DNA of 64,000 nt from Spiroplasma endosymbiont of Diplazon laetatorius (GTDB taxonomy: Bacteria > Bacillota_I > Bacilli_A > Mycoplasmatales > Mycoplasmataceae): the NCBI RefSeq assembly GCF_964019625.1, contig NZ_OZ026458.1:496001-560000 (forward strand), in the 5' to 3' direction. Positions 16,343 to 56,468 of this stretch are shown here, piece by piece. Position 1 is the stretch's first letter; each line of letters opens with the position of its first letter. The notes under the pieces were generated by a model. It made no database searches. It was not told the DNA's origin and saw only the letters and a program-made list of their open reading frames with translations. The position numbers were made by a program, and so were the translations under genes.

Positions 16343-16927
16343 ATGGCAAATAAAAAAGGTAATAATTTCTTATTGTTAAACTATTTTAAACCATCTATCT
16401 ATCTTGAAAGTTATGAAAAAGTTAACTTAGCTTCACTTAAAAATAGTGGTATTAAACTTGTTATGTGTGATATGGATAACACTTTAATAGGTTGAAACGA
16501 AAGAATACCATCTCCTGATGTAATTGAATTTGTGAAGAACGTTTATTCACAAAATATGGAGTTTGTATTGTTTTCAAACAATATCAGAAGTAGGGTTGAA
16601 AACTTTGCTAAAAAAGCAGGTATTAAAAATTACTTTTGAGATTGCAAAAAACCATTACTTGGTAAAATGAAAATAGTTAAGAAACTTTTCAAATACAAAG
16701 AAGAAGAAATGATCTTAATCGGTGATCAATTAGTAACTGATGTACTTGTGGCAAATAGGGCTCACATCAAAAGTATTTTAGTTTCACCATTAAGTAGAAA
16801 TAAAGAAGAGAGCAAAACAGTTCAATTCTTAGAAAAACATATTTTAAAGAAACTTTCACAAAAGAATATTCTTCATGAAGGTTTTTATAACGAAGGGGAA
16901 ATAGGGGGTAATTATGAAATTCTCTAA
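16343..16927 (+). CDS. yqeG: YqeG family HAD phosphatase
   Basis: 194 residues. HAD motif I is CDMDNTLIG (42-50), motif II lies in FVLFSNN and motif III/IV in MILIGDQLVTDV. The C-terminus carries a helical extension longer than in Bacillus YqeG. The protein is a HAD-IIIA phosphatase of unknown substrate that is regularly next to yqeH in Firmicutes. The ATG at 16343 follows GAGGTGGA. The frame overlaps yqeH by 14 bases. Confidence 0.9.
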
Positions 16928-18209
16928 TGATAAAATTACTGAAATTGAAAAACAAATAGAAGAACTTGAAGATCAAGCTCTTCAAATGAACGCTGTCGCA
17001 GAACCAACAATTAAAGTTAAGCAAAAAAACAAAGTTACTTTAACTGAAGCAAAACCAGGAGTTGGAAATACAACAAACTATAATTCAACAGGTCCTAAAA
17101 AATGTATTGGTTGTGGAAGAGAATTACAAACAACTGATGACAGACTTCCAGGATTTAGTTTAAACATTGAAAAACAAGATTTATGTTTAAGATGTTTCAA
17201 AATTAAATACTATAACAAATTAGTTGAACAAGAAATCAATGATCAAGATTTTGTCGATATTATTGATGAGATAAACTCAACAAAAAATAAGATTAGATAT
17301 TATTATGTTGTTGATATCTTCGACCTACCAGGAAGTAGATTAACTTGATTAGAACAATTAATTTCTAAAAAAGAAGTTGTTATTTTAGTTAATAAAATAG
17401 ATTTATTCCCAAAATCAGTTAAAAAAGCAAAAATATTTAATTATGTTAAAAAATTCTTTGAAAACTCACCAATTAAGAATTCAAAAATTTTATTAACAAG
17501 TTCAATTAAATCAGACTATGTTTATGCACTTGTGAATGAATTAAAATCTGTTGAATATGATCAATATATTGTAGGTATTTCAAATGCAGGTAAATCAAGT
17601 TTAATGAACGCATGTTTAAAACTTAACCAACAAATACCTTCAATTGTAACTTCTAAATATGTAAATACTACTTTAGATAAAATCAAAATTAACTTTACAG
17701 AGAAAAACTTTGTCTATGATACACCAGGACTTGTAAAACATAACCACATAGCTATTGCAACTGCACCAAGTTATTGAGATTTCTTTTTCTTTCAAAAAGA
17801 AATTAAACAAGTTACTTATCAATTGAACCAAGGACAATCAATTTTCTATGGAGGTCTTGCTTGATTCACTTTTGAAGAAGGGCAAGCTTATAATGAAAAA
17901 AATGGAAAAGAAGCAAAAACTGGTTTCCATTTATATGTAAATAAACAATTGCCTCTACATAGAACAAAAGCAGAAAATGCTCAAAGTTACTTTAGAAAAA
18001 ATCGTCATACTTTAGCTCCAAGATTGCTGGACAAAGATATTGATTTTGAAACACATACATTTACCTATGATTCAGAAAGAAAAGTTGATTTACACATTTC
18101 TGGTTTAGGATGAATTAATTTCAAATCATATAAAGGTATGAAATTATCTATTACAGTTCCAAAAACAGAATATGGTGTTAAAGTTACAGAACTTGAAGCA
18201 TTAATCTAG
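16914..18209 (+). CDS. yqeH: ribosome biogenesis GTPase YqeH
   Basis: 431 residues. A coiled N-terminal extension is followed by a zinc finger (C64-x2-C67, C91-x2-C94) and a circularly permuted GTPase: the G4 NKID comes first (about 161-164), then G1 GISNAGKS (221-228), then G3 DTPG (about 272). The C-terminal domain (about 290-431) is the RNA-binding part. YqeH helps assemble the 30S subunit. The start lies inside yqeG, and GGGGG precedes it. Confidence 0.95.
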
Positions 18210-18210
18210 T

Positions 18211-18251
18211 AAAAATATTTTATAAAAAAAAAATATTTTTTTTTTTTTTTT
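18211..18251 (+). terminator. A/T-only hairpin with 16-T tract
   Basis: AAAAATATTT (18211-18220) and AAATATTTTT (18231-18240) can pair, followed by an unbroken run of 16 T (18236-18251). It can end yqeH transcription, but the T tract also lies between the -35 and -10 positions of the next gene. Confidence 0.55.
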
Positions 18252-18254
18252 AAT

Positions 18255-18260
18255 TATAAT
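18255..18260 (+). promoter_or_regulatory. -10 element of the GH85 operon
   Basis: TATAAT four bases after a run of 16 T. The tract fills the spacer, so its length would set the -35 to -10 distance. Confidence 0.6.
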
Positions 18261-18279
18261 TATTGTTAAGGGGGATAAA

Positions 18280-20817
18280 ATGAGGAAATTAATATTCTGT
18301 TTGTTAGCTTTAACAAACACAATGCCTTTTTTGTTATACACAGTTTCTTGTGGATCTAACATTAAAGATTATGGTACAGATTTGTCAAAAATTGGGGACT
18401 ATAATTGAAAAAATGAGGAACCATATTATAAAGGTCATAGCGAAAACAATGCATTAGAGATTCCAAAAGTGTCATTGGAATCTAACTTAAAAATGAATAA
18501 CGAAAGAAACTTTTTAGACTATAAAGAATTCAATACTGGTTATAAGACTTCTAGTGAAGTACATAAGCAATCACCAACAGGTGTACCTTTGAATTCAAAA
18601 TTCATGCCTAATGGAAATAGAAAAAAAGATATTATGTCAATCAAAAGAAATGAAATTTTCGATAGAACAAATAGTTTTCTTGATTGAAATTTTAGCAGTG
18701 ACTTAGATGCTAAATACAACAAATCAAGAATAGAATTACAAAAAACAACAAAAGTTGCTTCTAAATGGGTTGAATCACAAGATCCAAAAATAAAAGAAAT
18801 GAACATGTCTGTTCTGGCAAATCACACTTCAAATGAAAATACAATTGTAGGGAACCACAGAACATATTATAGAAGTTTCAATAACTATCAATATAATGAT
18901 ATTTTAGTTTCTTGAGCAGGAGCTGCTGATGAAGGGATAATAGTTCCACCAGCTAAAAATGAAGTTGAAAAAGCACATATAAATGGAACTAAGATATTAG
19001 GAAACATTTTCCTAGATGGTTACCACGGTTTAACAAGACAAATGTTAACTGATTTTTTAAAAAAGGATTCAGCTGGTCAATATTTAATTGTAGATATTTT
19101 AATTAATTTAGCTCTTGAATTAGGGTTCGATGGTTGATTCTGAAATAATGAACCTAATGGTTATTTTTATAATGGATATATTTTAAAATATGAAATTGTA
19201 GAAGAAACAATGAAACAATGAAACAATAAAGTTAAAAATTCAAGTGACGAGAGAGTTAAAGATTTAATTTTATTCTCTTATAAAAATGATGGAACTTTGG
19301 AACTCGATTCTGATGGCAAACCCATAAGTAAAGAATCAATTGCTTTAAAAGAAAATAGTGATTATTTTCAAAGTGATTTTGGTGTTACACCAAATAAATC
19401 AATTAAATACTTAGAAAACCAACAAAAACCTATTGATTCTCATGAAATATATAACATGTATAATTTAGGTGGTTGAATAAATGGTGATATTTTTTACAAT
19501 GAAAATTTAATTGGTAAAAGAGATCTTAGAGATTTAGTTTATATACATTTAGATCCAGAAGGAAAAGAATATATAGATTTTGAAACTGAAAAAAGAGATA
19601 AAAACAGTAACAAATGAACTTATAAAGAAGATGAGTCTATAAATTCTCTTTCAATTTTTGCTGGTCACACAGCAAGTGATTTAGCAGAAAGAGAAGCTAA
19701 GAAATTAGGAAATACACAAGCTTCTGATATTTATGCAATGGCTAAAACCAATTATTATGATGATATGGTATATACAGGTCACAATAGACAATTATCAGAA
19801 AGTGATTATGGTTCTATTTCATATGATACAAGTACTTTTGAAGAAGGTATGAGTTATGGTGTTGGTAATTTAGTACAAGAAAAAACTTTATTAAATGATG
19901 AAAATGAATCATTCTTTACTAATTTTTCAACAGGTAATGGTGCTAAGTTTGCAACATTAACTGGATACACTGAAAATGGAGTAGTTTTAAGAAACGTTGA
20001 AGAAAATTATCCTTGAACAAATACAAATATAGCTGATGCTCAACCCACTTATAAATGAATGGTTAGCGAAGTTGAAGGGGATAAAGAAAATAAAGTTAAT
20101 AGTTCAGAAATAAGTGGTTATTATGATTATTACGAGCCTTTCTTAAAAGGAAATTCTATTGCTCTTGGTGGTGGAATTGATGAAACTAATGGGCAAATAA
20201 AAGATGCTAAATTCACAAGCGGTAAAACTTATAATTGAATGATAATGGGAAGTAACTATAAAAACAAGTATTTAAATGTTTCTTTTGTTTATAAATCAAA
20301 TGATGAAGAATTAAAACCTAAAATATTATTTGAAGAAGTTAGTTCTGGAGAACAAAAACTACAAGCGATGGATGGAGACATCAAAGACATTGGTGGTGGA
20401 TGAAGAGAAATAAGTTCAAATATTAAATCATCTAATACAATTGGTAAGATAGGACTTCAATTCCAACCAAATAAAGATGCAAAAATAAACGTTGGACAAT
20501 TGTCAGTTAATCAAAATAAAATAAATACAAATTACAATCAAAACGAAATTAATTTTAATTCTGAATTAGTTATCGACAGAAATAATGGTTACAAAAATTA
20601 TAGAATCAACTTTGATAATTTAATTGATTCAAAAGATATATATTCTTACTATGAACTTTATTATGAAAATGAAGGTAAAATTTATAGAGTTGGTGAAACT
20701 AATTCAGAAAACTTATACTTAAAAGACATACCAGATTCATCTAAAAATATATACATAAAAGTACAAAATAATGCTTCTAAAAAAATAGAATGAATAAAAT
20801 TGAAAGTCGGGGAATAG
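18280..20817 (+). CDS. surface lipoprotein, GH85 endo-beta-N-acetylglucosaminidase
   Basis: 845 residues. A signal with lipobox YTVSC (Cys24) anchors it outside. The GH85 domain runs from about residue 150 to 500: DILVSWAGAADEGIIVPP, HINGTKILGNIFLDGY, then LGFDGWFWNNE, with the Asn289-x-Glu291 pair expected for substrate-assisted cleavage. A beta-sandwich carbohydrate-binding-like region follows. GH85 enzymes cut the GlcNAc-GlcNAc core of N-glycans. It is followed four bases later by an ABC transporter. About twenty TGA codons are Trp. AAGGGGGA precedes the ATG. Confidence 0.88.
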
Positions 20818-20821
20818 AAAA

Positions 20822-21514
20822 ATGTTAGAAATAAAAAACTTATCCAAAAATATAGGTAAGAATAAAATATTAAATAACATAAATCTTAAAATACAAACAG
20901 GAGAGTGTGTTGGTATTTTAGGATCTAACGGAGCTGGTAAAACAACTCTAATGGAATGTATTGTAGGACAAATAAAACCTACATCAGGAGAAATTCTTGT
21001 TGATGGTGAAAAAGAGTCATTTAAAAAATTTGGGATTCAATTTCAAGAAGGTATTTGACCAATGGGTGTTAACTCTAAAATATTAATAAAGTTTTTTAAA
21101 AAAAATTGATTTAAAGAATTAGATCCACACACAAAAGAATTGATAAAAATATTTGAAATTGAAAGCTTCTTAAATAAAGATTTAAATAATTTAAGTGGTG
21201 GTCAAAAGCAAAGAATAAATACTTTTTTAGCTGTTGTTAATAATCCCAAATATATATTTCTTGATGAAATGATAACTGGTTTGGATTTAAAAATGCAGTT
21301 AAAGTTAATAGAATTTTTCAAAACATATAAATTTCAAGGAAAAACTATTGTAGTAATTTCTCATATACCCGAAGAGGTTGAGGAATTATGTGATAGATTA
21401 GTAATATTAAAAAAAGGTGAAATATTTTTAGATGAAAAAATAAGTGAAATTATAAAAAAATATGGAAGTGTTAGAAAATTATTAATAAACTATTATGAAA
21501 GTGAAAATAAATAA
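20822..21514 (+). CDS. ABC transporter ATP-binding protein
   Basis: 230 residues. Walker A GSNGAGKT (34-41), signature LSGGQ (124-128), Walker B KYIFLDEM (about 141-148) and a switch histidine in VVISHIPEE. It resembles single-domain ATPases of ABC-2 type exporters. The cognate permease follows after one base. Its position directly behind the GH85 gene suggests export or handling of something linked to the surface, but the substrate is unknown. Confidence 0.92.
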
Positions 21515-21515
21515 T

Positions 21516-22376
21516 ATGGAAAAAAATCAAAATAGCTTTATCAAGTTTAACAAAAATTTTCTTAATAATTTCTTATTAATTTCAGGTTCGGTTTTAAAAA
21601 ATTTTAGAACATACGTTTACTTATTTTTCATTCCAATATTTTTCCTTGCTGTTTATTCATGATTTACTGGTGGTAACCAAGCGAATTTTAGAGTTCCAAA
21701 ATTATTTTTATTTATGTTGATCCCAACATACTCAATAATTTTTTTAGTAAACATTTCAATCTCTGAATGAAAAAATTCAGTATTCCTAAAAAGAATACAC
21801 AGTGCAGGTGTTTCTAAACTTGAATTTTTAATAGCTATATGAGCATTTAACTTAATAGCTGGATTAATATCTTTTGGTATTGGTATTTTATCAATATATT
21901 TACTTGGTATTTTATATTTTAAACCTGGTGAAGAAAGCATTTCATCGCTGTTTAATCTAATCACATTTGGTGAATGAATGGGGATACTTTATGCTGTTTT
22001 CCTAAATATCTTTATTTCGATAGCTATAGGAACAATAATAAGTGGACTTATTAAAAGTGTTGCACTTTCTCAAAGTATTTCAATTATAGTTGTGGGTGTA
22101 TGTATTGTGTTTTCAGACAATTTATTACCCATAGAATTAATGTCTTTAAATAAAGGTCTTTTAATATTTAGTTATTTTATACCTCAAAAACATAGTGTTT
22201 GAGTTGGATTAATAGTATCTTCAGCACATAAATTGGATTGAATTGTAGAGAATCCAGATAGAAGATACATAAGTTTCAACTATAATCTAACATTAGTTAG
22301 TTTCACATCATTGATATATACATCATTATTAATGGTGGGTGCATACTTTTCATTTGGGTGAAATAACAAAAAATAG
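21516..22376 (+). CDS. ABC-2 type transporter permease
   Basis: 286 residues with six membrane helices. The cytoplasmic stretch KNSVFLKRIHSAGVSKLEFLIA before the third helix is the usual ABC-2 permease element (W-x-x-G-x-x-x-R-x-x-x-x-G-V-S-x-x-x-F), shortened here. It partners the ATPase just upstream. Seven TGA codons are Trp. The stop is a TAG at 22374. Confidence 0.85.
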
Positions 22377-22456: not shown

Positions 22457-23419
22457 ATGAAATTAATTTTAGCTATTGAAGTAGGTGTATCATCATCAAA
22501 GGTTGGTTTAGTAAACCAATATGGGGATTTACAAGCTAAGTTTTCAGTTGATCACGACCTAAACAACCTTATTCCTAATTTACATGACAAAATAATGGAT
22601 GGTTTAGAAGCTATTGGAATTAACTACGAAGAAGAAATTGAAAAAATTGGATTAGCAATGGGTGGATATATCGACCATATGTTAGGTATAGTTAGATATT
22701 CTGCTAACTTAGATTTAAAAAACTACAACATTAAAGAAGTTGCAGAAGAATTATTCAAAAAACCTATTTTTGTAATAAACGATGCTAACGCAAGTGCTTT
22801 AGGAGAATTTTGAACTGGTGTTGCAAAACAATATGATTCAATTATCTTTTACTACATTGATCAAGGAATTGGTGGGGCAGTAATTACTGAAGGTAAATTA
22901 GCTCCAGGTTCAAGAGGTTTTGCAGGAGAATTTGGTCATGGAGGAGGAATCTTCCAAACTAAATATGAATGTTCTTGTGGATTAGTTGGATGTATTGAAC
23001 CAATGTCATCAACTAATGGTATTGAAAACCACTTTAAAGAAACATTCAAAAACAAAAAAAATCATCCAGCATTAGACTTTTTTAATAACCCAGAAACAAT
23101 TACTTTTAAAGAAATTGTTGAAGTTTATGAAGAAAAAGGATATCCATATGAAATTGGTGATTTATTAGAAGAAGCTTTAGAACCAATTGTTATGCATATG
23201 GCATCAATGATTAACGCTTTAGATCCAGAAGCTATAATTTTAGCTGGTGGATTAACACATCTTGGAGATAAATTAATTGAAATTATTCATACAAACATTA
23301 AAAAATACATTATTGATATGTTTGCAGAAGAATTAACTATTGAAATTGCTGAATTAGGAAATGATTCAACAATGATCGGTAGTGCATATTACGCATTAAA
23401 TGATTGAAAAATATTCTAA
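22457..23419 (+). CDS. glk: ROK family sugar kinase, probable glucokinase
   Basis: 320 residues. The N-terminal ATP-binding loop AIEVGVSSSKVGLV (6-19), the catalytic stretch VINDANASALGEF (about 106-118) and the ROK zinc motif C172-S-C-G-x3-G-C179 are all present. The family phosphorylates glucose, N-acetylmannosamine or GlcNAc; glucose is the default guess. It has its own promoter region and GGAGGG site. Two TGA codons are Trp. The terminator overlaps the last codons. Confidence 0.88.
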
Positions 23420-26915: not shown

Positions 26916-26959
26916 AAAAAATATTTTAATTCAATAAAAATATTTTTTTTTTTTTTTTT
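26916..26959 (+). terminator. A/T hairpin with 17-T tract
   Basis: AAAAATATTTT and AAAAATATTTTT can pair, followed by 17 T (26943-26959). It can end the tkt unit, and the tract also covers the -35 position of the next promoter. Confidence 0.6.
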
Positions 26960-26978: not shown

Positions 26979-27045
26979 CATTTAGGAATTTAACAAAGCC
27001 AAAGAAATACAGAAAAAAAAAAAAAAAACAGGACGGTGGACAAAA

Positions 27046-27726
27046 ATGATACAGGTTTTCACTTGTAATGACTTTAAAAGAGTTAATGCATTCTTAATGC
27101 ATAATGAAGATAAAAAAGCTATATTATTCGATACAGGATATTTAGCATATAAAGATATAATTGATTTTGTTGAAAAAAATAATATTCAAATTACAGATAT
27201 CTTTATAACACATGGACATTTCCCTCATTTTTATGGAATAAATGAGATATGTAAAAATCAAAATAATCCTAACGTTTTTATTGGAAAAGAAGACTTATTA
27301 AATTTATTTGATTCTTCAAAAAACCTTAGTGAATTATTCGAAGGAGTAGGTAGCTATATAGCAGAACCTATAAAAAATTTAAAAGTAATTTCAGAAGAAA
27401 CTACTTTAGATTTAAATGGATACAAAGTAAATATTTACAGAAAGAATTCTCATACAGAAGGATCTTTAATATTCGAAATACCTGAAAAGAAATTTATCTT
27501 TACAGGTGACTTTATTCTTAAAGATGAAAGTTATCTAGTTGACGGAATTATGCAATTAGATGATGAAAACGAAAAAAATGCAAAAGAAATATTCAATTGA
27601 ATTATTTCTGCATTTGATAAAAACTATAGTGTATTCACAGGACATTATGATTACGGATTCGAAATCAGAAATATTCTTGAAGACAAAGAGGCAAAATTAC
27701 TAAGAAAGTATATTGAAAAAGATTAG
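27046..27726 (+). CDS. MBL-fold (glyoxalase II-like) hydrolase
   Basis: 226 residues. The metal site motif is H56-G-H58-F-P-H61, followed by SHTEGSL (next His), FTGDFI (bridging Asp) and GHYDYG (last His). The usual Asp of H-x-H-x-D-H is Pro60, so binding of the second metal ion may be altered. The family includes hydroxyacylglutathione hydrolases and many unassigned hydrolases. The leader carries a long A tract. One TGA is Trp. Ends at a strong terminator. Confidence 0.82.
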
Positions 27727-56433: not shown

Positions 56434-56468
56434 AAAAAAAAAAAAAAAATCAAAATTAATTGATTTTA
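56434..56468 (-). terminator. valS terminator with 16-T tract
   Basis: AAAATCAA and TTGATTTT flank a 6-base loop, and 16 T (56449-56434) follow on the minus strand. The stem overlaps the valS stop. Confidence 0.75.

Follow-up and report, generated by a model that had tools for sequence, protein, structure and literature searches.

The run of 16 thymidines (T16) in front of a gene for a GH85-domain surface lipoprotein raises the question whether its length could influence the expression of this gene. The original prediction was that the run fills the spacer between a -35 and a -10 element, so that slippage would control a surface glycosidase and the ABC transporter behind it. The window, i.e., the whole stretch of DNA that was analyzed, has a length of 64,000 nt, and all positions refer to it. 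The reading favored here, to which we assign a probability of about 0.5, is that the run forms part of the core promoter region of a GH85-ABC operon and, as a homopolymer, is prone to slippage. The features of the locus are as follows:

16914-18209, forward strand: yqeH, ribosome biogenesis GTPase (TIGR03597 above cut-off, E 7.8e-98); its terminator region overlaps the tract
18211-18240, forward strand: weak A/U-only inverted repeat running into the tract (arms 18211-18221 and 18230-18240, from RNA folding), possibly a remnant or a weak terminator of yqeH
18236-18251, forward strand: T16 homopolymer tract, read directly; one of 31 such tracts genome-wide, with lengths of 15-17
18255-18260, forward strand: putative -10 element TATAAT, read directly; -10-like hexamers are present in the G002, G009, G004 and G010 orthologs
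18268-18274, forward strand: Shine-Dalgarno-like AAGGGGG, read directly; GGGG is invariant in seven aligned relatives
18280-20817, forward strand: GH85-domain surface lipoprotein, 845 aa in code 4 (Pfam PF03644, E 2.9e-23; lipobox YTVSC)
20822-21514, forward strand: ABC transporter ATPase (Pfam PF00005, E 2.2e-25)
21495-22376, forward strand: ORF overlapping the ATPase gene, without a Pfam or NCBIfam match; a permease is presumed from position only
22457-23419, forward strand: ROK-family sugar kinase-like gene (Pfam PF00480, E 6e-49), possibly part of the operon

The T16, the TATAAT and the lipoprotein ORF were all present as predicted. Upstream of the tract lies an A10 run (18224-18233), which is separated from it by TA, and the three nucleotides directly preceding the tract are ATA, not GC. 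Downstream, AAT is followed by TATAAT, which is probably used as the -10 element of GH85, and then by the Shine-Dalgarno-like motif and the ATG at 18280. The distances from the tract are thus 3 nt to TATAAT and 28 nt to the GH85 ATG. A search for RNA families found none at the T16 locus. The predicted position of the tract before a surface glycosidase gene and an ABC transporter is favored by the lipobox, by the GH85 domain and by the ATPase ORF, which starts 4 nt after GH85 and thereby makes co-transcription of the two genes plausible.

The claim that the tract fills a -35/-10 spacer did not gain support from the locus, at which no -35 element is recognizable. A sigma-70 scan reported no consensus -35/-10 pair at the tract, and the hexamers 15-21 nt 5' of TATAAT were read as AATATT-like. 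Mollicute -35 elements are often degenerate. A function of the GH85 tract as spacer filler would be an extrapolation from the tract class described below, not from the locus itself. The more general claim of a promoter position fared better, because the tract adjoins the likely -10 of GH85 and this geometry is kept in five species.

These five species are the window species and G002, G009, G004 and G010, in which T15-T17 was found before GH85, with seemingly the same upstream gene. In all five the tract ends 1-3 nt 5' of a -10-like hexamer, which is TAAAAA or TAAATT in the four orthologs, and the distance from the tract end to the GH85 start is 26-30 nt. The multiple alignment of the GH85 loci is unreliable within the homopolymer and was left out of the spacing measurements. 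The geometry was retained despite an identity of the GH85 proteins of only 62-64%. In further orthologs the layout varied: in G012 the arrangement is TTTGC[T16]GGTTAAAAT, more distant from the ATG, in G014 a T16 is present 48 nt from the ATG, and in G018 a similar arrangement contains only T6, after a hairpin. In the orthologs of G019, G015 and G011 a long tract is absent, which counts against the favored reading. The GH85 promoter region thus includes a tract that recurs and is kept within the lineage, yet is non-essential, because several more distant orthologs lack it.

A feature unique to GH85 was rejected, as T16 is one among 31 T or A tracts of at least 12 bases in the genome, which have lengths of 15 (2 tracts), 16 (17 tracts) and 17 (12 tracts). 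In the window the number of runs declines geometrically up to a length of 10, and then there is a jump to 16 (three runs) and 17 (one run). Extrapolation of the window's own run-length statistics led to an expectation of about 0.02 runs of at least 15 in the window and about 0.3 in the genome. The observed numbers were 4 and 31, respectively, and a chance origin was rejected. A scan for runs of at least 9, with a pattern that misses a few, yielded 30 runs of 9-10 bases and 27 of 15-17, and no run with a length of 11-14. Related genomes contain the same narrow class with slightly shifted modes (16 in G004, 17 in G009, 17-18 in G026), and some more distant relatives have no such tracts or a wider length spread. 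A sequencing artefact may be behind such tracts, but the class was seen in many genomes with species-specific modes, which argues against this explanation. The class of 15-17 with none of 11-14 is a clean natural case for the question what sets the length of bacterial homopolymers. Apart from the single tracts, intergenic regions were found to contain perfect palindromes, T15-18/A15-18 and some 34 nt long (L067, L071 and L073 in G002, L084 in G009, and G019), and each half is as long as the single tracts.

The frequency of -10 elements beside tracts of this class was determined for 152 tracts from six genomes, and positions 20-99 downstream were used for the expectation. A -10-like hexamer began 1-3 nt past the T tract in 22 cases (6.2 expected), and an exact TATAAT was found at these positions in 10 cases (1.0 expected). 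The number at offset -1 was also high (18), but it is biased because the tract itself supplies the first T. On the A-oriented side the -10 excess was weaker, i.e., 12 versus 6. On the other flank, TTG began 4 nt 5' of the tract in 36 cases, compared to 1-14 at neighbouring positions. TTG and -10 co-occurred 24 times versus 15.3 expected (p=0.0014); the distance between them would correspond to a spacer of 13-20 nt. The plainest cases in relatives are ACTTGC[T17]GTCATAATTAG in G026 and TTGAC[T16]ATAATTA in G019. The TTGC or TTGA at the 5' edge of many sibling tracts suggests that tracts of this class serve as spacers. At the GH85 locus of the window the -10 is present and the TTG is absent.

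Several further tract arrangements were noticed at other sites. G019 contains a promoter-like family of about eight copies with TTGAC[T16-17]ATAATTA...CAATTTGAATT (e.g., C1:605987 and C1:822062), which is a candidate for a phase-variable gene family. At L053, L078, L095 and L152, in several species, CTTTGC[T16-17]AT(G/T)ATTA and a subsequent inverted repeat precede an oxidoreductase-like gene; no Rfam match was obtained. In the window, a T17 (26943-26959) and an A16 (27013-27028) flank TATATAAT before a gene for a protein with a metallo-beta-lactamase fold (27046-27726), and the A16 ends 17 nt 5' of its ATG. A T16-17 with TATATAATCATTT directly behind it was seen also in G002, G009 and G019.

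The class is also associated with lipoprotein genes. Among the genes that start at most 150 nt past T-oriented tracts, 28 of 82 encode lipoproteins, compared to 7 of 172 other genes of the same loci (p=5e-10) and 5 of 61 genes in the window (p=0.0002), whereby the p-values are only indicative because the classifier was adjusted once, the sample of tracts in the relatives is non-exhaustive, and orthologous loci are non-independent. After A-oriented tracts the number of lipoprotein genes was 0 of 22. In G000 alone, 5 of 12 genes after T-oriented tracts encode lipoproteins. The classifier was a regular expression, and the adjustment was a loosening of its hydrophobicity rule, as the earlier form missed evident lipoproteins, GH85 itself among them. 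This earlier form had the same direction, with 26 lipoproteins after T-oriented and 0 after A-oriented tracts. Sequence comparison shows that the GH85 tract is real, that close relatives have kept it and that it is part of a class, present throughout the genome, with a link to lipoprotein promoters. The T runs that precede surface-protein genes may make the expression of these genes flicker. A further tract of the window, at 56434-56449, is an A16 that reads as T16 on the minus strand; it precedes, by 62 nt, the start of an ORF whose N-terminus resembles a signal peptide.

Slippage, the source of variation named in the original prediction, gains support from length differences of single bases. 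G004 and G010 are sister species, and ten pairs of their orthologous tracts have clearly matching flanks; for two of these pairs the match is restricted to the downstream flank, as the comparison was ungapped, and one mis-assigned pair was left out. A difference of a single T was seen in 5 of the 10 pairs, among them the GH85 pair (T16/T15). Near-identical repeat copies within one genome differ as well, i.e., T16/T17 in G019 and T14/T15 in G014, copies of the hairpin element GTTCCCCCCAAATTGGGAACG included. The one-T differences between species and between copies would fit to slippage, and a one-base assembly error at such runs may also be behind them.

The tract could also be viewed from the side of the upstream gene. 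T16 would then mainly serve yqeH as a terminator U-tail, the proximity of the tract to the -10 would result from the short intergenic region, and the tract length would hardly matter for GH85. A hairpin of at most -5 kcal/mol ends at the tract in 48 of the 152 cases and on the other side in 4, which counts against the favored reading; such a hairpin was found also for 13 of the 43 promoter-like tracts. The G009 ortholog offers a textbook terminator, in which the GH85 tract serves as U-tail to a strong hairpin (z -4.53) behind the upstream gene. The original prediction was overstated in this respect, as the class to which the tract belongs also forms terminator tails. Intrinsic terminator U-tails need far fewer T than T16, and the window tract is much longer than this function requires. 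In addition, the hairpin in the window is weak, consists of A/U only and, with -4.8 kcal/mol, is not above shuffled sequence (z -0.66; G002, -1.96), and the distances to the -10 and to the start codon are fixed where the upstream hairpin is weak or absent. A mere terminator tail is thus judged to be unlikely. The simplest history would be that the T-tail of the yqeH terminator grew and now overlies the GH85 promoter. As a separate observation, the repeated hairpin GTTCCCCCCAAATTGGGAACG, followed by T14-T17 and then ATCATTTTTTATT, is present in G019 and G014 at many sites.

Two further explanations dispense with switching or with a function. The T-rich stretch might be a fixed promoter element that replaces a -35/UP-like region and tolerates one-T changes. 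The tract covers exactly the -35 region, a -35 itself is not present, and the tract is kept beside the -10 in five species, all of which would agree with a fixed element, but the TTGC or TTGA at the edge of sibling tracts points to a spacer, and we consider the explanation improbable. Alternatively, T runs might grow neutrally to a mutational set-point of 15-18 wherever short T runs existed, as in terminator tails and promoter spacers. The very narrow, context-independent and species-specific lengths, with none of 11-14, speak for such growth. The tract lengths are alike in promoter-like and terminator-like settings, which indicates that the length is not tuned to promoter spacing and counts against the favored reading. 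As the length is independent of the context, a mutational set-point accounts for the narrow lengths better than selection for promoter spacing. The strong, strand-specific association with lipoprotein genes and the retention before GH85 across five species argue against a purely neutral origin, which we hold to be hardly probable.

According to the favored reading, the run could act as follows. The tract ends 3 nt before the -10 and would cover the region where RNA polymerase contacts the spacer and the -35 region. Replication slippage would add or remove a T, the upstream sequence would be shifted relative to the -10, and the promoter strength would change at random, in the manner of a switch or of a volume control. 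In one relative or more, the tract doubles as U-tail for the terminator of the upstream gene, a fusion of terminator and promoter. Length variation within a population, and expression that tracks the length, would be expected. The basis is comparative: the position and the conservation of the tract, the link of its class to -10 elements and to lipoprotein genes, and the one-T differences. On-off switching of GH85 is plausible on these grounds, and the original interpretation is, as a whole, partly supported.

A much broader proposal is put forward only tentatively, and the odds are against it. In the Spiroplasma-type lineage, the named members of which live with insects lacking antibody immunity, about 30 T tracts per genome might lead to genome-wide stochastic expression. 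Replication or repair would hold a species-specific set-point of 15-18, and many tracts would combine a terminator with a promoter, through which surface lipoproteins and further genes would vary. If promoters are switched by these tracts, the contingency loci of Spiroplasma-like bacteria would form a system like the one known from vertebrate mycoplasmas, and the 31 loci of the genome are ready for testing in existing reads.

Poly-T promoter tracts in other Mollicutes have already been suspected, and in the open-access literature, to which the search was confined with subscription papers outside its scope, no report of such a tract class in Spiroplasma was found. The GH85 tract resembles the known kind of contingency promoters, and its membership is putative. 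With the U-tails of intrinsic terminators it shares the T run after a gene-end hairpin, which is clear in the G009 ortholog, but the window tract is much longer than usual, adjoins a -10 and has a weak hairpin. The homopolymeric A tract in the vlp promoters of Mycoplasma hyorhinis is an established switch (PMC10502178), and it is likewise a homopolymer of similar size in promoters of surface lipoprotein genes, with slippage as the expected source of variation. In contrast to GH85, it consists of A, belongs to a clustered multigene family and has been demonstrated to switch; the GH85 locus has no recognizable -35, and its switching is putative. A second established switch is the repeat in the promoter spacer of vmm in Mycoplasma mycoides (PMC10502178), where the repeat length also changes beside a lipoprotein promoter, but the repeat is a TA dinucleotide and switching has been demonstrated. 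In Mycoplasma mycoides capri a GC(T)17-20 motif, the function of which was stated to be unknown, precedes a lipoprotein family (PMC3053259). The tract length is nearly equal and the GC is shared by many sibling tracts and the G009 ortholog, whereas the distance to the ATG is 88-113 nt there and 28 nt in the window, and the window tract follows ATA instead of GC. In Mycoplasma bovoculi, a homopolymeric thymidine tract in the putative promoters of the vpb surface-protein genes was proposed to be phase-variable (PMC3931370). The vpb genes are similar in having poly-T in putative promoters, but they form an array of five paralogues for which phase variation is only proposed, whereas the tracts described here stand before unrelated genes scattered over the whole genome.
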